A DNA stretch of 64,000 nt from Flexilinea flocculi. GTDB taxonomy: Bacteria; Chloroflexota; Anaerolineae; Anaerolineales; Anaerolineaceae. Position 1 is the first letter of the stretch. Each line of letters opens with the position of its first letter. The stretch covers positions 1 through 64,000 of the forward strand of contig NZ_DF968180.1 of the NCBI RefSeq assembly GCF_001192795.1, written 5' to 3'. The position numbers and the translations under genes are program-made. The notes beneath the pieces are model-generated. The model was not told the origin of the DNA. It did not search any database and saw only the letters and a list, made by a program, of their open reading frames with translations. Below are positions 10,877 through 60,950 of this stretch, in pieces.

Positions 10877-11743
10877 CTAACCTTTTGCAATTATTTCTAA
10901 ATATTTCTGCATGGAGGGGTCGCCTGCTTCTTTTGACAGCAGCAGCAGTTGTTCCCGATCGATATAACCCATCCGAAATGCAATCTCTTCCGGGCAGCTT
11001 ATCCGCATCCCCTGTCGGGTTTGGATTGCCTGAATAAACATTGCAGCCTGAATCAGGCTTTCGTGGGTCCCGGCATCCAGCCAGGCTATACCTCTTCGAA
11101 GAACCTGGACTTTCAATTCGCCGTTGTTTAAGTAAATGCGGTTCAGATCTGTAATTTCCAGTTCACCGCGTTTCGAAGGCTTCAAATTACAGGCGTATTC
11201 TGTGACCCAATGGTCGTAAAAATAGATTCCGGGAACAGCATAATTAGATTTGGGGTTCTTCGGTTTTTCTTCGAGACTGATCGCATTCCCTTCTTCATCA
11301 AAAGAGACAACGCCATATCTTTCCGGATCCGAAACTTCATAGGCGAAGACGACTGCCCCTTTTTCCAAGGATGCCGCGGTACGGAGTTTTGAAGGAATGT
11401 CTTGCCCGTAAAAAATATTGTCTCCCAAAACTAAACAGGCAGATTCACCGGACAGGAAATCTTTCCCGATGATAAAAGCCTGAGCCAGCCCCTCCGGTTT
11501 GGGTTGTTCGGCGTAAGCGAAAGAAATTCCCCATTGACTGCCGTCCGATAAAAGCCGTTTGTAGAGGGGTAAGTCATCAGGTGTGCTGATCACTAAGATT
11601 TCCCGGATTCCAGCCAGCATCAGCATGGAAAGCGGATAATAGATCATTGGTTTGTCGTACACCGGAAGCAATTGTTTGCTGATGACACGCGTCAGGGGGT
11701 AGAGGCGGGTGCCTTTCCCGCCGGCCAGGATAATGCCTTTCAT
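10877..11743 (-). CDS. rfbA: Glucose-1-phosphate thymidylyltransferase
   Basis: This enzyme makes dTDP-glucose from dTTP and glucose-1-phosphate, the entry step to dTDP-L-rhamnose. The N-terminal [13 protein letters not shown] signature, [12 protein letters not shown], and [10 protein letters not shown] with a metal-binding Asp are all in place. Length is 288 residues, as usual for RmlA. The ATG start has a GGGAGG-type site upstream. It lies 40 bases after rfbB and just before rfbD. Confidence 0.95.
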
Positions 11744-34045: not shown

Positions 34046-34909
34046 ATGAAAAAAATCGTAATATTCCTGGTAACAACAATTTTCGCCGTATCCATTGGTG
34101 GATTTGCTTATCCTAAGGCTCAATTCGATCCCGATAATGATATTAGTGTGGTTTCACGCGAAGATGGTTCAGGCACACGCGGCGCTTTCATTGAATTGTT
34201 TGGAATTGAACAAAAGGACGCGGATGGAAATAAACACGATCTGACGACCGTTGAAGCCATCATCACGAACAGCACATCCGTTATGATGACTGCCGTCGCA
34301 GGCAACCCTTACGCAATTGGCTACGTTTCCCTCGGATCTTTAAACAATACCGTTAAACCGATAAAAATCGATGGGGTGGATGCATCGGTTGAAAACATTC
34401 TGAATGATTCCTATAAGATTTCACGTCCGTTTCATATAGCTGTAAAGGATGGCATTTCTGAAACTGCACAGGATTTCATTAATTTCATACTGAGTACTGA
34501 AGGACAGGCTGTTGTTGAGGAAACCGGATATATTGCTGTTGCCGGTGAACATGCATATGCAGGAAATCAGCCGGAAGGCAAAGTCATTGTTGCCGGATCC
34601 TCTTCAGTTACACCGGTGATGGAAAAGTTAAAAGAGGCTTACCTGCTTGTCAATCCGAATGCATCCATCGAGATTCAGCAAAGTGATTCAACAACGGGAA
34701 TGACCTCAACGATTGAAGGTGTTTGCGAAATTGGAATGGCATCCAGAGCTTTAAAAGATAGTGAGCTGGAGGCAGGTTTGATCCCGACAGTTATCGCAAA
34801 AGATGGAATTGCAGTGATTGTCAACCATGAGAATCCAGTTGAGACACTGACCGTCGATCAGGTGCGATCCATTTTTACCGGTGAACTGACCGAATGGTCT
34901 GAATTGTAA
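34046..34909 (+). CDS. Circularly permuted PstS-like phosphate-binding protein
   Basis: This is an exported solute-binding protein of 287 residues with a Sec signal peptide (VIFLVTTIFAVSIGGFA) and no lipobox. The two halves of a PstS protein are in reversed order. Residues about 30-165 match the normal C-terminal half (SREDGSGTR, GNPYAIGYVSLGS, FINFILSTEGQAVV). A short linker follows, and residues about 180-287 match the normal N-terminal half (VAGSSSVTPVMEKL, EIGMASR, DGIAVIVNHENPVETLT). The phosphate-contacting motifs of both halves are kept, so binding should be possible. No pstCAB genes follow. ATG start with AGGAG upstream. Confidence 0.85.
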   Translation: MKKIVIFLVTTIFAVSIGGFAYPKAQFDPDNDISVVSREDGSGTRGAFIELFGIEQKDADGNKHDLTTVEAIITNSTSVMMTAVAGNPYAIGYVSLGSLNNTVKPIKIDGVDASVENILNDSYKISRPFHIAVKDGISETAQDFINFILSTEGQAVVEETGYIAVAGEHAYAGNQPEGKVIVAGSSSVTPVMEKLKEAYLLVNPNASIEIQQSDSTTGMTSTIEGVCEIGMASRALKDSELEAGLIPTVIAKDGIAVIVNHENPVETLTVDQVRSIFTGELTEWSEL

Positions 34910-35114
34910 TAACCATATTTGACTTCTAAAAAAGATTCCATGTTTGCCTCAATAAAAAGGTGAACATGAATTTTTTTTGATTTAAAGAAAGTATTCCCAT
35001 TATATTTTCCTTGAGAAGCACAAACAAAAATGGATCGATTCAACATAAAAAAACTATTTTCTGCATCATACATGAAGAGAAAATTCTCTTTGTCATACCG
35101 ATGTTTTTCGCAGT

Positions 35115-35143
35115 TTGACAAGGAGGTGCGATTATGTTTTAAT
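35115..35143 (+). promoter_or_regulatory. Sigma-70-type promoter of metK
   Basis: TTGACA (35115-35120) is a perfect -35. A 17-base spacer is followed by TTTAAT (35138-35143), one mismatch from the consensus -10. Transcription would begin near 35150, just before the SAM riboswitch. The spacer happens to contain AGGAGG and ATG. Confidence 0.75.
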
Positions 35144-35177
35144 AGGGAAAGTAAAAATTAAATAGCCCCTGAAGGCG

Positions 35178-35282
<105 letters not shown>

Positions 35283-35303
35283 GGCAAGATACAAGATTAT
35301 CCC

Positions 35304-35331
35304 AACCCCCTTGATTTCAAAGGGGGTTTTT
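35304..35331 (+). terminator. Riboswitch-controlled terminator before metK
   Basis: AACCCCCTTG pairs with CAAAGGGGGTT (one bulged A) around an ATTT loop, followed by TTTTTAT. It lies 22 bases after the aptamer and 7 bases before the metK ribosome site AAGGAG, the arrangement expected of a transcription-terminating S-box. Confidence 0.9.
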
Positions 35332-35348
35332 ATTATGAAGGAGAAAAT

Positions 35349-36563
35349 ATGTCAACGTTTATGAATTCACCGAAATTTCTGTTCACATCGGAATCTGTCA
35401 CAGAAGGTCATCCGGATAAGATGTGTGATCAGATCAGCGATGCAGTGCTGGATGCTTGCCTGGCACAAGATCCATTTTCGCGTGTGGCTTGTGAAACTGC
35501 CACTAAAACCGGTTATGTCATGGTTTTTGGCGAAATAACCACAAAAGCTTTTGTCAATTTTGATGAGTTGGTCCGCAAGATCGTATTAAGTATTGGTTAT
35601 GACAGCAGTGAAAAATGTTTTGATGGACATACTTGCGGGATCATCTCAGCGATTTCAACGCAGTCCCCTGATATTGCACTGGGTGTGGACAAATCGCTCG
35701 AAGCAAAAAAAGGCGAATTAAATGGATCCGGAACAGAGGATGTCGGTGCGGGTGATCAGGGAATGATGTTCGGATATGCTTGCAACGAAACAGATGTATT
35801 GTTGCCGTTGCCAATCTTTCTGGCACATCGGCTTGCTGAGAAATTGACTGAGGTTCGAAAGTCGGGAGTTCTTCCCTGGGTTTATCCGGATGGAAAAAGT
35901 CAAGTGACAGTTGAATATGCTTATGGTAAACCGCGCAGAATTGACACAGTTGTGATCAGCACGCAGCATTCTGATTCCATGCGGAATAAACATGACGAAA
36001 TCGAAGCAGCTATTAAAAAATATGTCATCGATCCGATTCTTCCCAAAGAACTGGTTGATTCTGATATGAAAGTATATGTCAATCCGACCGGTGAATTCAT
36101 TGTCGGTGGACCTCAGGGTGATTCCGGATTGACCGGACGCAAAATCATTGTTGATACGTATGGCGGCATGGGACGTCATGGCGGCGGTTGCTTCAGTGGA
36201 AAAGACTGCACAAAAGTGGATCGTTCTGCCGCTTATGCAGCCCGCTGGGTTGCCAAGAATATCGTGGCGGCAGGTATTGCCGACCGTTGTGAAATCCAGC
36301 TTTCCTATGCAATCGGTGTATCCAAACCGATTAGTATTAATGTTGAAACTTTTGGTACTGGCAAAATTTCTGACGAAAAAATCTCAGAAATTATCCATGC
36401 TAATTTCGATCTGCGCCCGGGTGCGATTATTCGTGATTTGAATCTGCGCAGACCTATTTATCAGAAAACCGCTTCCTATGGTCATTTTGGACGGGAAGAT
36501 GATAGTTTCACCTGGGAAAAGACAAATAAAGCTGAAACACTGCGAAAAGCAGCAGGATTGTAA
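35349..36563 (+). CDS. metK: S-adenosylmethionine synthetase
   Basis: This enzyme makes SAM from methionine and ATP. Its 404 residues carry the expected [25 protein letters not shown]-terminus, [12 protein letters not shown], and the glycine-rich GGAFSGKD-type loop, here [16 protein letters not shown]. The usual GGAFS is replaced by GGCFS. The gene is controlled by the SAM-I riboswitch and terminator just upstream. ATG at 35349 with AAGGAG. A terminator follows at 36582. Confidence 0.97.
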
Positions 36564-36581
36564 ACGATTTATCAACAAAAA

Positions 36582-36615
36582 AACGCCGGAATTTAAGATC
36601 CGGCGTTTTTTTTTG
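36582..36615 (+). terminator. Rho-independent terminator of metK
   Basis: AACGCCGGA (36582-36590) pairs with TCCGGCGTT (36599-36607) and runs into a tract of eight or nine T. A-rich sequence on the left side may let it work in both directions. Confidence 0.9.
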
Positions 36616-36945
36616 TTGACAGCATGTGGATTAAAGGTCCATTCGTCAACAAATTTCATCGTTTTTCGGTGGATTTCTTGTTACTTCTTTGTGGATGATG
36701 CAAGAATTCAACTTATTGGCCAGCTTTTTGAATCAATCGTGAAAGCCGGTTTGTTTTTTTGCATAATTCGAAGAATCATAAGAAATCCTCCCCTTTATTT
36801 ATAAATTGTTGACATCCGTTTTTTTTTGTGGATAGATTGTGGAGGAATGAAGAATTTATCCATATAAATCAAGTAGATATGGTGGATTACTGGTTTATTG
36901 TTTGTGGATGATGGGATTGACTTTTCAAATCGAGTAAGAAAATTT

Positions 36946-36990
36946 ATTGTTCCAATGGTTTTACACGAAGCGCAAAACCATTGGAACAAT
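36946..36990. repeat. Palindromic element, copy 5 (variant stem)
   Basis: ATTGTTCCAATGGTTTT (36946-36962) pairs without mismatch with AAAACCATTGGAACAAT (36974-36990). The 11-base loop ACACGAAGCGC matches the loop of other copies. The right outer arm CATATTTCGAATTACTG ends at 37020. The stem differs from the common GTTGTTGTG type. Confidence 0.88.
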
Positions 36991-37476
36991 TATGAATCCT
37001 TTTCATATTTCGAATTACTGCTGAAATAACCGTTTTCTTCAATTTTCCGGAAAAAATCTGTGGGTATTTTGTTGAAGATTTTATTTCTCTTGTTGATTTA
37101 TTGTGTTTTCCCAAAAGGATTTGGTGGATAATTTTCCTGAATATGTGGAAAGAATTGCTGAAAAAATGTGGATGATTTCTTAACTTTATCAGATCGGCAG
37201 TACATTGATCATAAAAGCACGTTGCTTCTGTAATTGGTTCATAAAAATTCAAGCCTTATTGATGTATTGGATCAGAAATGTTCATAAGACGTTGAAAGAA
37301 CGTTGATATACAACCAGATCATTAAGGAATACCTGTGGACAATTTACAAAAACCGTTGAAAACAGGCCTTGTTTTGTTGATTTTTTTGTTTATAATGCGG
37401 ATCTTAGGAAAATCTTACTCTTGATGATCGAGTTTTCCAGTTGTGGATAAGCGATTCGCAAGATGGGAAGAATGAT

Positions 37477-37525
37477 TTGTTGTTGTGTTATTTATGCGCT
37501 CTGCGCATAAGTAACACGATATCAA
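37477..37525. repeat. Palindromic element, copy 6 (hairpin core)
   Basis: TTGTTGTTGTGTTATTTATGCGC pairs with GCGCATAAGTAACACGATATCAA around a TCT loop, with a few mismatches in the lower stem. It lies between the perfect DnaA box at 37442 and the end of the membrane glycosyltransferase gene. Confidence 0.82.
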
Positions 37526-37594
37526 TTTCTCTTTCTTTTGTAAAAGAAATTCCATTTTTCAAATTATTAACTGTGGATCATTTCAAAATAAAAA

Positions 37595-39364
37595 TCAACG
37601 AAATCTGGGAAGGATCTTGAAAAAATTAATGGTCAATTGAGCAAGATAAATACTGGAAGCCAGAAGCCAGGCACTTATCTGTATCCATTTTTTTTGAAAG
37701 AAAGCATGAGTTTTCCCAGATTGAATTGCCAGCGGAATGCTGAAAATGGTTCCCATCAACGGAAGTAATACGGGCAGTACATATTGGGTCGATTTCACTG
37801 CAACGAAAAAGATCAGATATCCGCCAATCATAAGAAACCAGAAGAATTCCATCCGATGAGCAAGCTGAAATTTGCCATAAAAACAGCCAAATAATAGAGA
37901 TGCGATCAAAAAGAAAAAGCAGAACATCTCTGTATAATGATCCTCAAACGCAGGGTACCAGGCATCCCATCCGGGACGATAGTCGTTTCGCGGATCATAA
38001 TCTCCAGCGTAACCTTCGGCCATTTCACCGGATTTTTCCTGCATAATTTCAACCATTCTGTCTCTTGCATCAGCCCGGAATAAAAATGGATCGACAAACA
38101 GGACTGTCGCACACATCAATACAAAAAAAATGAATCCCCTGAAAATTGCAGTTCGAAATCGAAGGTTCTTTTTCGACAATCCCATTATCAGATATACGGC
38201 AACAGCCGTCACAAAGAAGAACCCGTAAAGGCGTGTTCCGATTGAAAGTCCGGTACATACTGCTGCAAGATAAAAATTTCTTCCAAATCGAAGCCGATCT
38301 CGCTGCAGAAAATAGAGGACCAGACAAACAAATAACAAGTTCAATCCATCCGGATGCCAAAATCCCTGATTGTTTTGAAGCGTTCCGGGAGTCAGCAACA
38401 GAAAAACAAAAACCGCAAGACTCAATAAAATATGATTGAAACGCGTAAATAACCAAGTAATGATCATACATGCCAGAATGACCGGGATGACTGAAACAAA
38501 AATTCGCAGCAGCGGTAAATTGATCGAAATCATATCGGGAAAATTCGCTCTATTGAGCAATTTCACCGGAAGAAGGACCAGTGCAGACCAGGCGTAAAAC
38601 GGATATCCATAATGATAGTCTTCGTAAATAAACAGATGGTAAAGTGTTGCACTGAATGTCTCCCCTTCTTTCATCACATCCATCAATATCGGATAGATGA
38701 CCACTTCATCTCCGCCGTAATGCTGAAATGCCTCAGGACTTTGCGTTCCATTTATATTGGATGGAATCAAAATCAGTATGTAAAGAATGGAAAATGCAAC
38801 CAATACGAAAAGTACGGTCTTTTGATTTTTGGATAAGTCAGCAAAGCGCGGCAGCAATCGATATTTTTTTAAGAATTCGCCACCTCGAATCGATTGTGAC
38901 TCATATCGTAAAAGAAGGACTGTGGCTTGAAGGAAAAATATCCCAAGCCATAGAATCTGCGGCCTGAGATTGGCGGGAATGAACAGCCAGGAAAACACAA
39001 ATGACCAAATTGAAAGAAGCACTCCTGCGATGCAACCGATTAAAACAAAAAAAACATGGTCTCCTGTATGCAGAAAACGCTGATAGTCTTTTATAAAAGG
39101 ATCGGTATCAGGCTTTTTTCTCAGGGACTGATGTGCTGACAAAAACAGCAAAACGACGACCAGTGTAATTGCACCCAGGATCAGTCTTTCATAAGAGAAT
39201 CCCAGCAATTTTGCTGCGTCGGGTTCGGAAGGCTTCATAAAAGTAATCATGAGGACAACAAGACCTTCCACGGCAGTCAGTAGCGTCAACCGCTGCAGGT
39301 ACGCTGAAGAAATCATATCGGATTGATGGTTCTTGAATTTGTGGTTCTCAGAGGCTGGATTCAT
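37595..39364 (-). CDS. GT39-like integral membrane glycosyltransferase
   Basis: This polytopic membrane protein of 589 residues has about twelve hydrophobic segments. A GGDEVVIYP acidic motif sits in the first large external loop (about residue 225), the position of the catalytic acidic residue in GT-C enzymes of the ArnT/PMT (GT39/GT83) type. Such enzymes transfer a sugar from a polyprenyl-phosphate carrier on the outer face of the membrane. The chosen start is the ATG at 39364, with AGG five bases upstream, overlapping the protease gene by about 17 bases; a GTG at 39370 is also possible. The substrate is unknown. Confidence 0.78.
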   Translation of the reverse strand: MNPASENHKFKNHQSDMISSAYLQRLTLLTAVEGLVVLMITFMKPSEPDAAKLLGFSYERLILGAITLVVVLLFLSAHQSLRKKPDTDPFIKDYQRFLHTGDHVFFVLIGCIAGVLLSIWSFVFSWLFIPANLRPQILWLGIFFLQATVLLLRYESQSIRGGEFLKKYRLLPRFADLSKNQKTVLFVLVAFSILYILILIPSNINGTQSPEAFQHYGGDEVVIYPILMDVMKEGETFSATLYHLFIYEDYHYGYPFYAWSALVLLPVKLLNRANFPDMISINLPLLRIFVSVIPVILACMIITWLFTRFNHILLSLAVFVFLLLTPGTLQNNQGFWHPDGLNLLFVCLVLYFLQRDRLRFGRNFYLAAVCTGLSIGTRLYGFFFVTAVAVYLIMGLSKKNLRFRTAIFRGFIFFVLMCATVLFVDPFLFRADARDRMVEIMQEKSGEMAEGYAGDYDPRNDYRPGWDAWYPAFEDHYTEMFCFFFLIASLLFGCFYGKFQLAHRMEFFWFLMIGGYLIFFVAVKSTQYVLPVLLPLMGTIFSIPLAIQSGKTHAFFQKKWIQISAWLLASSIYLAQLTINFFKILPRFR

Positions 39365-40598
39365 CTCCACCTAATGTGACTGATAAGATTTGTTGTTTGC
39401 CATTGCGGTTCACTTCGATTGCAACCGTTTCATTCGGGCCGTATTTGAACAGACAGTTGTAAAAGGAACTTTGTTCGCCAATTGCGTAATCACCGATCTT
39501 CGTAATAATATCGTTTTCTTTCAAGCCACCACGATCTGCAGGACCTCCCCGAATGACTTCCATGATATAAATGCCGTGATCAACCGGCAATCGATAATTG
39601 GCTGCCATTCTTGGTGTGACATCTGCCCAACGAATACCCAAATAGGGCCTGCTGAAAGATCCTTTGGCGATGATTTGCTCAGAAATCAGTTTTACCGTTG
39701 TGGAGGGAATGGCGAAACCGAGCCCCTCAGCATAGGTCGATGTTGAACTGGATCCTCTGACAATCATCACATTAATTCCGATCACTTCTCCTGATAGATT
39801 GACCAGCGGACCTCCGGAATTACCCTGGTTGATCGCTGCATCCGTTTGAATCAAGTTTTCCATTTGATACCCGTTTTCTGTTTCCAAAAATCGTCCGGTT
39901 GCACTGATTACACCTACCGTGACTGTATTTTTGAAATTGCCTAAAGGGGATCCGATGGCAATGACCGTTTCTCCGGATTTTAGCCGATCAGAATTGCCGA
40001 GTTTCGCTACACCAGGCATTGTTCCTTCGACCTTAATGACAGCCAGGTCAGCGAATTCATCTGAGCTGATCAATTTACCTGGCAGCGTTGTCCCATCCGC
40101 CAGTTCTACTGAGAGCTCTGTCGCCTCAGAAACGACATGATTATTTGTCAAGATATATCCGTCCTTACTGATAATGACACCGCTGCCCATACTTGTGCTG
40201 GTTTGATTATAGCGATATCCAAACCATGACATAGCTGTACTCTGAATGTTCGCTGTGATGGTTACTACGGCAGGTCCAACTTTGTCAACCACATCGATGA
40301 TTTCCGATTCAACATTTGAATAAGAAGTAACAACTTCAGCAGGATTTTCTGAAACCTTCTTCAAATCAGCCTTCAAATCGCTGATATCGTTTTGGATCGC
40401 TTGTATTGTTTCATCAGAAACAGGAGCGGATTGATTCTGCCGGGAAAAAGAAGAGAAAAGAAACACTCCCAGTGCGGCTGCACCGATCAAACCACCGATT
40501 ATTGCAGCGAGGAGAATGGTCCAAAAGTTTGATTTCTTTTGCGGTTTTTTGCCTGGTTGATTTTCGGGTAAATAGATTGGATTATTATAGAATTCCAT
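39348..40598 (-). CDS. HtrA/DegP-like serine protease with PDZ domain
   Basis: This is a membrane-anchored S1C protease of 416 residues. One N-terminal membrane segment (about 27-50) is followed by a coiled linker, a trypsin-like domain with the triad His154, Asp184 and Ser261 (GNSGGP), and a C-terminal PDZ domain (about 315-410, with GGPADRGGLKENDIITKI). It probably degrades or refolds damaged proteins outside the cytoplasm. ATG start with AAGGA. It is the first gene of a leftward pair with the GT39-like gene. Confidence 0.94.
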   Translation of the reverse strand: MEFYNNPIYLPENQPGKKPQKKSNFWTILLAAIIGGLIGAAALGVFLFSSFSRQNQSAPVSDETIQAIQNDISDLKADLKKVSENPAEVVTSYSNVESEIIDVVDKVGPAVVTITANIQSTAMSWFGYRYNQTSTSMGSGVIISKDGYILTNNHVVSEATELSVELADGTTLPGKLISSDEFADLAVIKVEGTMPGVAKLGNSDRLKSGETVIAIGSPLGNFKNTVTVGVISATGRFLETENGYQMENLIQTDAAINQGNSGGPLVNLSGEVIGINVMIVRGSSSTSTYAEGLGFAIPSTTVKLISEQIIAKGSFSRPYLGIRWADVTPRMAANYRLPVDHGIYIMEVIRGGPADRGGLKENDIITKIGDYAIGEQSSFYNCLFKYGPNETVAIEVNRNGKQQILSVTLGGDESSL

Positions 40599-40782
40599 AT
40601 TTTTTCCTTTTCTTCAATTCTAATCGCACTGAAAAAAGAAGAATTTAAATTTACATTAATATGATGAATAAAAAAATGGAATAAGTAACAGAACCACTTT
40701 TCGAAATTTGAAAGGGATTTTGAAACACGAATTCTCGGTGGATTTCAGCGATTTGATCCATTGGAAGAATGAATTGTTGAAA

Positions 40783-41337
40783 TTATTTCAATTTTCTGCG
40801 CAGCCAGGCAAAGAAAAAGAAAACGGTTGATGCTGCCCAAAGCCAGCTGTATTGTCCAGGTCCTTTTTCACCAGTGCAAGCAGAATTTCTTTGAATGGAA
40901 AGCACCTGCCATTTATGCGGATTTTGTTGTACATGGCGGCTGCCGAATTTACCAAACATTTTTTCAGTTGTGATCGAGGAAAGCAGCAAATCCCGTTTCT
41001 CACCGGTTACAATCAGGGCATTGCCGCTGTACCAGCCATTCTTCATCCAGACTTGAATGGCAGAATTTGATAAAAGAACTTCAGTGCTCCGAATGTCTTC
41101 TTCTTTCTCCACGATTACAATCATCTCACCGGAAATCTCCTGATATTTCAATGGAATCATTTGATGATTTTCCATGAAGGTTAGAACCAGAGAATTCCCA
41201 ATGTATTTCGGAATACTGTTCATGATTTTTCCCAATCCGGTTTTCCACATCCAGAGTTCTGTCTGGCGCTCTATCAGGAAAACTGCTTTTTGGAGGTTAT
41301 TCTTATGAATCAGTTGGGAAATTTGATTGAATTTCAA
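40783..41337 (-). CDS. Hypothetical protein with C-terminal membrane anchor
   Basis: This unrecognised protein of 184 residues ends in one hydrophobic segment followed by basic residues (WAASTVFFFFAWLRRKLK), suggesting a tail anchor. The body contains ISGEMIVIVEKEEDIRSTEVLLSN with a beta/alpha rhythm but no family signature. The start is a TTG at 41337 with AAAGGA nine bases upstream, 14 bases after the NYN-domain gene, so the two are probably co-transcribed. No function can be given. Confidence 0.6.
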   Translation of the reverse strand: MKFNQISQLIHKNNLQKAVFLIERQTELWMWKTGLGKIMNSIPKYIGNSLVLTFMENHQMIPLKYQEISGEMIVIVEKEEDIRSTEVLLSNSAIQVWMKNGWYSGNALIVTGEKRDLLLSSITTEKMFGKFGSRHVQQNPHKWQVLSIQRNSACTGEKGPGQYSWLWAASTVFFFFAWLRRKLK

Positions 41338-41350
41338 AAGGAAGTCCTTT

Positions 41351-42181
41351 CTAACTCTTCATCCGAGCGTAGATTACAGAGGTTCCATCTGCTCCTTTTA
41401 CCTCTTTTGTCTCAATATCATCCGGATACGCCTGGATCATGAGAGAGAGCCGTTTAAAGCCGAATGTTCGGGAATCAAACCCCGGATCCAACTGTTGCAG
41501 GTGATGCCCCAACGTCCCCAAAAATGCCCAGCCATTATCACGAACAGCAAGATCAAATGCGCTCCTTAATAAAGGCAGCGGATCTGGTGAACTATTATCT
41601 GTATCCGGCAGGATGGATGATGCGGGTTCAACTGTTTTTGTTTTTCTTTTGTGAGTAACAACATTGTTAATGCTTTTCAGCGGTTCTTTCGGAATAAGGT
41701 TTTCGGTATAAACGAACTGATCGCATGCATTGACGAATGCACGCGGTGTCGTCTTTTTCCCTACCCCCAGGACAAAAATTCCTTGCTCGCGGATTCTGGT
41801 TGCCAATCGGGTGTAATCGCTGTCGCTGGAGACAATACAAAAGGCGTCCACGGTTCCAGAATAAAAGATATCCATTGCATCAATGATCATCGCGCTGTCT
41901 GTTGCATTTTTGCCGACTGTATAACGAAATTGTTGGATCGGTTGGATGGCATGTGTCTGAAGGACATCTTTCCAGCCGCCCATGTTGGAAGCAGTCCAGT
42001 CCCCATAGATCCGTCGGATGGTTATCATTCCATATTTTGTTGTCTCAGCAAGAATTTTATCAATCAGGGCTGGCTGTGCATTATCTCCATCGATTAACAT
42101 GGCGATTCTTTGGGTTGGCGTGACATCGGTGATATCACGAATTGTGAAACTGTTGTTTTGCAAATCAAAGTCTTTTGCCAT
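41351..42181 (-). CDS. NYN-domain RNase-like protein with OST-HTH/LOTUS domain
   Basis: This protein of 276 residues has an N-terminal PIN-like NYN domain (LabA/DUF88 type). Its acidic residues lie in MLIDGDNAQ (Asp31, Asp33), DSAMIIDAMD and SSDSDYTRLA, the usual metal-binding set of this nuclease fold. A linker leads to a C-terminal winged-helix OST-HTH/LOTUS domain (about 195-275), thought to bind RNA. The pairing is common in bacteria, but the target RNA is not known. ATG start with AAGGAAACACC upstream. Confidence 0.9.
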   Translation of the reverse strand: MAKDFDLQNNSFTIRDITDVTPTQRIAMLIDGDNAQPALIDKILAETTKYGMITIRRIYGDWTASNMGGWKDVLQTHAIQPIQQFRYTVGKNATDSAMIIDAMDIFYSGTVDAFCIVSSDSDYTRLATRIREQGIFVLGVGKKTTPRAFVNACDQFVYTENLIPKEPLKSINNVVTHKRKTKTVEPASSILPDTDNSSPDPLPLLRSAFDLAVRDNGWAFLGTLGHHLQQLDPGFDSRTFGFKRLSLMIQAYPDDIETKEVKGADGTSVIYARMKS

Positions 42182-58982: not shown

Positions 58983-60950
58983 TTATTCAAACCAGCGGTC
59001 CCGGATCTCGTCCGGGGACATCAACCGGTCTGTATGAAAATCATCGTCTTCATATTCGATGACTGCCAGCGCATCGAGCAGATTGTCGTTGGTAATGACC
59101 GGAAAATCCACGAGGAACGCGTTGCCGTAGCTGCCTCCCAGCGCGGTTGCATCGATTGTTTCGCCGTTAAGCAAGAAATGAGCGGCATGCACCGCATCAT
59201 AGGCGATGCCGGGCGGATTACTAACTGCCACACACGAAAATCCAGGATGTTCGGTTATACGGTCTTTCCAGATGTAAAAGCCCTCTTTGGTGGAATCACA
59301 GGTCAGCATCGGATACCGGTCCGGGTCGCTGATGTTGTTCACAATCCCGAAAACCGCGCTGGTATACGCGGCATTTGTCCAAACGGCTTTCAGAGACGGG
59401 TATGCGCTGACCAGATCATTGAAAATGAATTCATCCTGATTGAAATTGTATCGCTGCGTGTCCGTGGTTACGACCTGGATATCTGGATACTCTTTTTCAA
59501 GCAGGTTCTGGATGCGCTGTGCATCTTTCTGTGACGGATTAAAATCAAAGTAGGCAAATTCTCCCGATCTGCCGCTCGCTTGAAACAAAATATTCAGCGT
59601 GGTACGCAGCATCTCATCGTGATCTGCCGTGATGGTGTAGACGCCGTCTATGTCGATTTCGGCGTCCAGCACAAAAACAGGAATGCCACGATCCACTGCT
59701 TCCTGGAGTGCAGCGCTGGAATTCGTGATCGTTTCGGGACTGGAATTCAAGACGAGGGCGCTGATATTTGCGCTGAGCAATGCAGGGATCTCCCCATATA
59801 TACAGGGTATGGCCAATTCATCACAGGCTTTTTGAAAATTAAGCTTGCGCTGCCATTGTGCACGAGTATCGCCAGCGTACCCCAAAAGCAGTACCGGTTT
59901 TGTTTCGGTAGGTGCGGCAACCGGAATGGGCGCTTTTTCAGGGCGAACTCCTTCAAAACCGGACAGACAGGTCGCCGGCCAGTCCGGATTGTGATCGATC
60001 CCGGGATGTTTCGTGAGGTTCAGGAAATTGTCTGGATAAATATCGCCGACCAGATAGATCTCTTCATCGCCGGTCAGAATGTCGACGCTGACACATTCGA
60101 CTCGCTCTCCATCCACTGTTTTAAAAGGCAAATATTGCTGTATTCCGCCTTTTCCACCGGCATTACGGACATTGGATCCATCCGCTTGCATGACGCAGTT
60201 GCTGCAAACGCCATCCGGATGGTCCCAATGTGTGAAAATTTCTCCATCAATCGTCCAGAACACATCATATACATTGCCGTTTTGCGTCAGTTGCTGCACA
60301 TGACTGCCGTCTGCATTCATGACGAAAAGCCAGGTCTGATCACCTTCCTTGCGCAACCAGGCGATTTGGCTGTCATCCGGTGACCAGGCGGGCTGCATCT
60401 CCTGTTCCGAGGATTTTGTCAGATTTATCGAGGGGCCGCTGCCGTCTGCGGGGATGATGTAGATATCCCCGTGATGCGAATAGGTGATCTGGCTGCCGTC
60501 ATGCGACCAGTCCGGTGCGGCACTGTCATCTTCAAAGGTCAGTGGATGAACATTACTGCCGTCTGCGTCCATGATCAGGATATAATTTCCGCTTTCCCGT
60601 TCATCCATCGAACGGTTTGACACAAAAGCGATCCGGCTGCCATCGGGTGACCAGTCAGGTTCTGCATCATACGCCGGATTTTCCGTCAGATTCCTCATTT
60701 GGCTGCCGTCTGGCGCCATGCTGTATACCTCGTGATTGCCGTCCCGGTCCGTTTCGAAGACGATGTTGCAGGGGATGGATGGCGTTTCGATTGGCGCGAC
60801 GGGACTTGTTGATAGCGGCGAAACCATGGCGGCTGCAGCAAGCGGCAGTGCTGCGTGTGCGTTGCTGTCGGTGGCAGCGCTTGCGTGACCGCTCAGAAGA
60901 ACTATCCAAACAATTGTTGCGATGGCAGTACAACGGATGTAACGTTTCAT
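58983..60950 (-). CDS. TolB-type propeller fused to a periplasmic sugar-binding domain
   Basis: This exported protein of 655 residues has a signal peptide (IVWIVLLSGHASA) and a six-bladed PD40/TolB propeller (about 60-345; repeats such as AEPDWSPDGSRIAF, PAWSPDDSQIAWL, VMNADGSHVQQL). A linker leads to a type-1 periplasmic binding domain of the ribose/galactose kind (about 355-640; LLLGYAGDTRAQWQ, ALVLNSSPETI, GIPVFVLDAEID, AVWTNAAYTSAVFGI). It may sense or capture a sugar for the ABC transporter whose ATPase gene starts at 63237. The fusion is unusual. ATG at 60950. Confidence 0.82.
   Translation of the reverse strand: MKRYIRCTAIATIVWIVLLSGHASAATDSNAHAALPLAAAAMVSPLSTSPVAPIETPSIPCNIVFETDRDGNHEVYSMAPDGSQMRNLTENPAYDAEPDWSPDGSRIAFVSNRSMDERESGNYILIMDADGSNVHPLTFEDDSAAPDWSHDGSQITYSHHGDIYIIPADGSGPSINLTKSSEQEMQPAWSPDDSQIAWLRKEGDQTWLFVMNADGSHVQQLTQNGNVYDVFWTIDGEIFTHWDHPDGVCSNCVMQADGSNVRNAGGKGGIQQYLPFKTVDGERVECVSVDILTGDEEIYLVGDIYPDNFLNLTKHPGIDHNPDWPATCLSGFEGVRPEKAPIPVAAPTETKPVLLLGYAGDTRAQWQRKLNFQKACDELAIPCIYGEIPALLSANISALVLNSSPETITNSSAALQEAVDRGIPVFVLDAEIDIDGVYTITADHDEMLRTTLNILFQASGRSGEFAYFDFNPSQKDAQRIQNLLEKEYPDIQVVTTDTQRYNFNQDEFIFNDLVSAYPSLKAVWTNAAYTSAVFGIVNNISDPDRYPMLTCDSTKEGFYIWKDRITEHPGFSCVAVSNPPGIAYDAVHAAHFLLNGETIDATALGGSYGNAFLVDFPVITNDNLLDALAVIEYEDDDFHTDRLMSPDEIRDRWFE

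Follow-up and report, generated by a model that had tools for sequence, protein, structure and literature searches.

Within the window, that is, the whole 64,000-nt stretch analysed, which is C2:1-64000 of the studied genome (G000; 3.51-Mb, three contigs), two genes converge on an intergenic region that is crowded with DnaA-box-like nonamers (Table 1). An earlier note on this DNA had named these genes metK and a GT39-like gene. The former name was confirmed by the S-AdoMet synthetase domains in Pfam, and in the metK comparison the nearest named relatives of G000 were two MAGs, one of the Anaerolineales at 74% identity and one of Brevefilum at 71%. The phylum is Chloroflexota. The latter label found no support, as the 591-aa protein matched no family in Pfam or NCBIfam; its product is probably a membrane protein, and the gene is called here the membrane-protein gene. 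It was present in 13 of the 14 genus genomes at E≤1e-120, G003 being the one without a copy. Upstream of it in G000, within 37595-42181, are genes for an HtrA-like protease and a NYN-domain protein (Pfam), and the same HtrA-like/NYN-like gene order, judged by sequence likeness, occurs in G004, G009 and G010. A SAM riboswitch (RF00162, 88 bits) is located at 35178-35282, upstream of metK, and was the only match above the gathering score in an Rfam scan of 34900-39400. The hairpin that follows metK has an RNA fold z of -7.9 and would be its terminator.

Two short ORFs called mechanically (102 and 108 aa) run into the cluster region, which also contains two dispersed palindromic repeats. Copies of the repeat at 36914-37020 occupy about 50 200-bp bins in 954 kb of G000, and those of the repeat at 37450-37564 about 31, their own copies included (blastn E≤1e-4); copies of the former were also found in G010 and G003. 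The repeats were considered as the source of the boxes and rejected, the 107-bp repeat containing none of the listed sites.

Table 1. Features in and around the DnaA-box cluster region (positions in the window)
Feature	Position	Strand	Remarks
metK	35349..36563	+	Pfam S-AdoMet_synt N, M, C; convergent neighbour of cluster
DnaA-box cluster region	36564..37594	.	1,031 bp, 33% GC, between convergent genes
DnaA-box-like nonamer TTATCAACA	36569..36577	+	single mismatch, outside 36616-37594
Terminator-like hairpin with T-run after metK	36572..36619	+	perfect arms 36577-36590/36599-36612 and 36572-36583/36608-36619
DnaA-box-like nonamer TAATCCACA	36625..36633	-	≤1 mismatch
DnaA-box-like nonamer TCATCCACA	36690..36698	-	≤1 mismatch
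DnaA-box-like nonamer CTATCCACA	36827..36835	-	member of tandem TGTGGA pair
DnaA-box-like nonamer TTATCCATA	36856..36864	+	≤1 mismatch
DnaA-box-like nonamer TCATCCACA	36903..36911	-	≤1 mismatch
Dispersed palindromic repeat, 107 bp, within cluster	36914..37020	.	strong palindrome
DnaA-box-like nonamer TTATCCACC	37123..37131	-	≤1 mismatch
DnaA-box-like nonamer TCATCCACA	37167..37175	-	member of tandem TGTGGA pair
DnaA-box-like nonamer TTGTCCACA	37334..37342	-	≤1 mismatch
Perfect DnaA box TTATCCACA	37442..37450	-	0 mismatches
Second dispersed hairpin repeat within cluster	37450..37564	.	strong palindrome
DnaA-box-like nonamer TGATCCACA	37572..37580	-	14 bp 3' of membrane-protein gene stop
Probable membrane-protein gene ('GT39-like'), 591 aa	37595..39370	-	membrane character judged by eye from sequence

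Eleven nonamers with at most one mismatch to TTATCCACA lie in 36564-37594, one of them perfect and nine on the minus strand. The one perfect and nine single-mismatch sites that the earlier note had counted in 36616-37594, almost all on the same strand, were recovered exactly (nine of the ten are on the minus strand), and a further site was found at 36569. Its description of the DNA as AT-rich is likewise borne out (33% GC), as is its estimate that fewer than one site would occur by chance: in 500 first-order Markov sequences with the region's own composition, the mean was 0.42 and the maximum 4. The motif TGTGGA was observed 10 times on the plus strand of the region against 0.3 expected. Over the whole window, 39 nonamers with at most one mismatch were counted against 17.65 expected, and none of 100 shuffles reached 39. 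Seven of the ten mismatches to TTATCCACA in the cluster fall on its first three bases, and the strict E. coli consensus TTWTNCACA is satisfied by only one of the 11 sites.

When 954 kb of G000 (27% of the genome) were scanned base by base, 36564-37594 was the densest kilobase for such nonamers, the runner-up having 4, and other 720-bp windows of G000 (n=3,854) held at most 3 boxes. By TGTGGA/TCCACA counts, the densest kilobases in the same 954 kb were the cluster (10) and C1:50,561 (8), followed by a third with 5. The whole G000 genome contained 16 same-strand TGTGGA pairs against 5 for the reversed pattern, and the cluster and the parS locus on C1 described below were the only places where two or more of these pairs fell within about 2 kb.

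The earlier note had proposed the region as a chromosomal origin. Among the features sought in an oriC, the cluster of DnaA boxes is present (11 against 0.42 expected). A GC-skew minimum is not, as there is no skew flip at 37 kb of the C2 stretch, and the local cumulative minimum of C2:1-64000 lies at 11,495, 25 kb from the cluster. The AT-rich tracts between the boxes, which the note had considered able to unwind, include no unusually weak duplex: the 60-bp stability of the cluster is 65.3, a value matched by 30% of the sampled kilobases. A search for parS found none at the cluster. The skew of G000 was sampled and noisy and is spread over three unordered contigs; a genome-scale minimum was obtained for G004, a complete one-contig genome of the same genus, from 36 stretches (715 kb) with interpolation. 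Its sampled cumulative skew has a minimum at 295 kb and a maximum at 1,655 kb, and the minimum falls at 292,309 in the contiguous 240-435 kb. The equivalent cluster of G004 is situated at 563.8-563.9 kb, so that 269 kb, or 9% of the chromosome, separate it from parS and the skew minimum; its weakest 60-bp duplex is matched by 66% of kilobases. This separation was measured in G004, since in G000 the cluster (C2) and the inferred origin (C1) are on different contigs.

Most likely the origin of G000 is not the cluster but the parS/cyclophilin/ferredoxin locus at C1:49.6-50.8 kb, as indicated by four lines of evidence: where the skew of G004 has its minimum, the position of parS, a weak AT-rich duplex, and boxes found throughout the genus. 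G004 has two perfect parS sites at 296,306 and 296,353. G000 has a perfect parS at C1:49,600 and another site, with one mismatch, at C1 63,339; the skew minimum of C1:1-170000 falls at 60,423, 10 kb from the parS locus. The genes beside parS encode a cyclophilin, a 4Fe-4S ferredoxin and an ABC-F protein, the cyclophilin being identified by matches to peptidylprolyl isomerase models that are below their cut-off. Three boxes, two of them in tandem, directly follow an AT-rich tract in G000, and the weakest 60-bp duplex of the locus is matched by just 0.88% of the sampled kilobases of G000 (5.6% for the G004 locus). The cyclophilin locus was found in 12 of the 14 genus genomes, and all 12 have boxes 3' of the cyclophilin gene (1 in G004, 2 to 9 in the others); within the sequence covered, 10 of the 12 also have parS. 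None of 16 loci outside the genus, some of them cut short, had parS or more than a single downstream box. In 9 of the 12 genus loci, no more than 42 bp separate the weakest duplex from a box; the distance is 236-317 bp in G007, G001 and G009. The G004 genome has a single TGTGGA pair, which lies at 295,144 in its inferred origin (the reversed-pattern control gave 1), and 3 of the 17 pairs in G010 are at the two loci corresponding to the cluster and the origin (control, 10). As the earlier note had indicated, dnaA is elsewhere: it lies at C1:212148-213512, which would put it about 162 kb from the inferred origin in G000; the corresponding distance in G004 is about 90 kb. The note had also held that its proposal would fail if a skew minimum and a stronger box cluster were found elsewhere; the former was found, whereas the cluster is still the strongest one sampled.

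The parAB genes are usually near the origin, and the position of the sole parB-family match in each genome (C3:1593020-1593556 in G000, 1636741-1637268 in G004), near the sampled skew maximum and far from parS, is therefore unusual.

Recurrence of the cluster was examined in the genus. Taking metK as the anchor was rejected, because at least 4 boxes per kb within 10 kb downstream occurred only in G000, G010 and G004 (count over 37 genomes, some with very short stretches). The membrane-protein gene is the better anchor, because the cluster is found at this gene in six genomes against three by metK. Boxes were counted over 720 bp, starting 120 bp ahead of its stop and ending 600 bp beyond it, giving 5 in G000, 4 in G010, 7 in G008, 3 in G001, 3 in G002 and 6 in G004, compared with 1 in G005 and none in G009, G007, G012 and G013. 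The cluster is thus present in 6 of the 11 testable genus genomes, G000 included; outside the 11 are G006 (223 bp, 1 box) and G011, which end too early, and G003 with its missing gene. Simulated means per 720 bp in the six positive genomes were 0.06-0.30 against the observed 3-7, and 9 of their 28 boxes are perfect. In the loci compared, the count at the cluster was not attained by any other 720-bp window of G010 (0/204), G001 (0/162), G002 (0/75), G008 (0/55), G004 (0/2,873) or G000 (0/3,854), the clusters and, where present, the origin locus being left out of this comparison except for part of the G000 origin locus.

The boxes have a uniform orientation in G008 (7), G001 (3) and G002 (3), and share one in 9/11 cases in G000 and 3/4 in G010, while in G004 they are mixed. 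The cluster extends over about 1 kb in G000 and over 0.06-0.2 kb in G008, G001, G002 and G004. The box spacings in G008 (23, 69, 32, 22, 31, 23) give a hint of possible helical phasing. Between G000 and G010, the intergenic DNA outside the boxes aligns only in patches, whereas the adjoining gene end is 81% identical.

The metK tree (midpoint rooting; G008 and G003 not included) shows two groups: G000, G010, G002, G011, G001, G004 and G009, with support of 100/100, and G005, G006, G007, G012 and G013. The cluster-positive G000, G010, G001, G002 and G004 accordingly group with the negative G009, and the cluster-negative G005, G007, G012 and G013 sit in the other group. In the DnaA tree, the cluster-bearing genomes are not united (3 changes are needed) and the metK grouping is absent; this tree was set aside as grouping evidence on account of the long branches of G004 and G009. 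An inverse relation between box numbers at the two loci was also dropped, being contradicted by G008 (7 at the cluster, 6 at the origin locus) and G009 (0 and 2).

With the origin inferred to be elsewhere, the region has what is expected of an extra-origin DnaA-box cluster (DBC), namely an above-chance cluster of boxes outside oriC. The recurrent boxes, the convergent intergenic site, a duplex stability that is not unusually low and the position off the skew minimum fit a DnaA sink or regulatory locus, and we consider it reasonably probable that the cluster titrates or regulates DnaA. The earlier note had left the choice between an origin and a titration site; the origin half did not hold, and titration is the better half, supported by the recurrence at one gene in six genomes. 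The cluster would most likely bind several DnaA molecules, and its duplication by the replication fork would either lower free DnaA (titration) or change the DnaA nucleotide state, by which the timing of initiation might be affected. Several observations count against this reading: the poor fit of the sites to TTWTNCACA (1/11), the lack of boxes at the gene in G009 despite its place in the same metK group, the single box in G005 and none in G007, G012 and G013, and the fact that the window has a skew minimum of its own, at a distance of 25 kb. So do the box numbers, since the cluster is richer than the inferred origin in both G000 (11 vs 3) and G004 (6 vs 1), and the TGTGGA/TCCACA core count of G004, which ranks the origin locus first (6 per kb) and does not place the cluster among the seven kilobases listed.

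The same surplus of boxes over the inferred origin, the AT-richness, the highest box density sampled and the presence of boxes beside this one gene in six genomes would suit the cluster being oriC itself. This is very unlikely, considering that skew flip and unusually weak duplex are both lacking at the cluster, that the G004 equivalent is so distant from the skew minimum and parS, and that the cluster is absent in 5 of the 11 testable genomes, all five of which retain boxes at the cyclophilin locus. Hardly any probability attaches to the cluster being an additional or backup origin, likewise dependent on DnaA, of a chromosome whose main origin has become box-poor: the many boxes speak for it, as do the same-strand TGTGGA pairs, of which G000 has more than one within about 2 kb only at the cluster and the parS locus, and the missing weak duplex, skew signature and parS speak against it.

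Alternatively, DnaA bound at the cluster could control transcription of a neighbouring gene, either as a transcription factor or by forming a roadblock, as the cluster abuts coding sequence and G008 has two perfect boxes inside the 3' end of the membrane-protein gene. The gene beyond the cluster is, however, convergent in all four genomes readable from open frames (G000, G010, G004, G001), placing the boxes at 3' ends; a promoter role is therefore unlikely, and we regard the transcriptional explanation as improbable. A somewhat better, still low, probability is given to the cluster as a relic of an older and wider origin region, without present function. On single contigs, the distance to the cyclophilin gene is about 28 kb for metK and about 33 kb for the membrane-protein gene in G009, and for metK about 36 kb in G001 and about 30 kb in G020; the gene order around the origin locus is common to G000, G009 and G001. 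However, the boxes persist, 9/28 of them perfect, where the flanking sequence of G000 and G010 has strongly diverged, which would hardly be expected from plain decay, and G009, in which the gene is still origin-proximal, has no boxes there.

Regulatory DnaA-box clusters outside the origin are best studied in E. coli and Bacillus, and the repeated occurrence of a cluster behind one gene, amid changing sequence in an Anaerolineales genus, provides a test of the generality of DnaA titration. The analysis also places the likely origin of the genus beside parS, a cyclophilin and a ferredoxin gene, which is of use where the strongest box cluster would otherwise be taken for the origin. According to a review (PMC5295017), E. 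coli datA, a region of about 1 kb that lies away from oriC and contains five DnaA boxes, is a negative regulator of initiation that requires IHF and promotes DnaA-ATP hydrolysis. The G000 cluster resembles datA in being a box cluster of about 1 kb that is probably away from oriC, but it is not assigned to datA proper, of which the IHF-dependent hydrolysis is a further mark. The B. subtilis DBCs are likewise clusters outside the origin, and the same review describes early initiation in a strain without six of them, although it judges that no cluster of significant role has been identified in that species (PMC5295017). They differ from our case, in which one cluster was found by sampling of sequence data, in another gene context. 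In E. coli, DnaA boxes are enriched near oriC, and the titration model (PMC12371093) shares with our proposal extra boxes able to bind DnaA after initiation; there the enrichment is broad and regional, in contrast to the compact cluster at one gene here.

Apart from dnaA, two consecutive weak Bac_DnaA domain matches, in frames of 488 aa each, were found at C3:738490-739530 of G000. In G035, which belongs to another family, C1:505258-505650 contains 6 boxes, two of them perfect, beside a strongly AT-rich tract and 29 kb from parS, and is a candidate origin of that genome.
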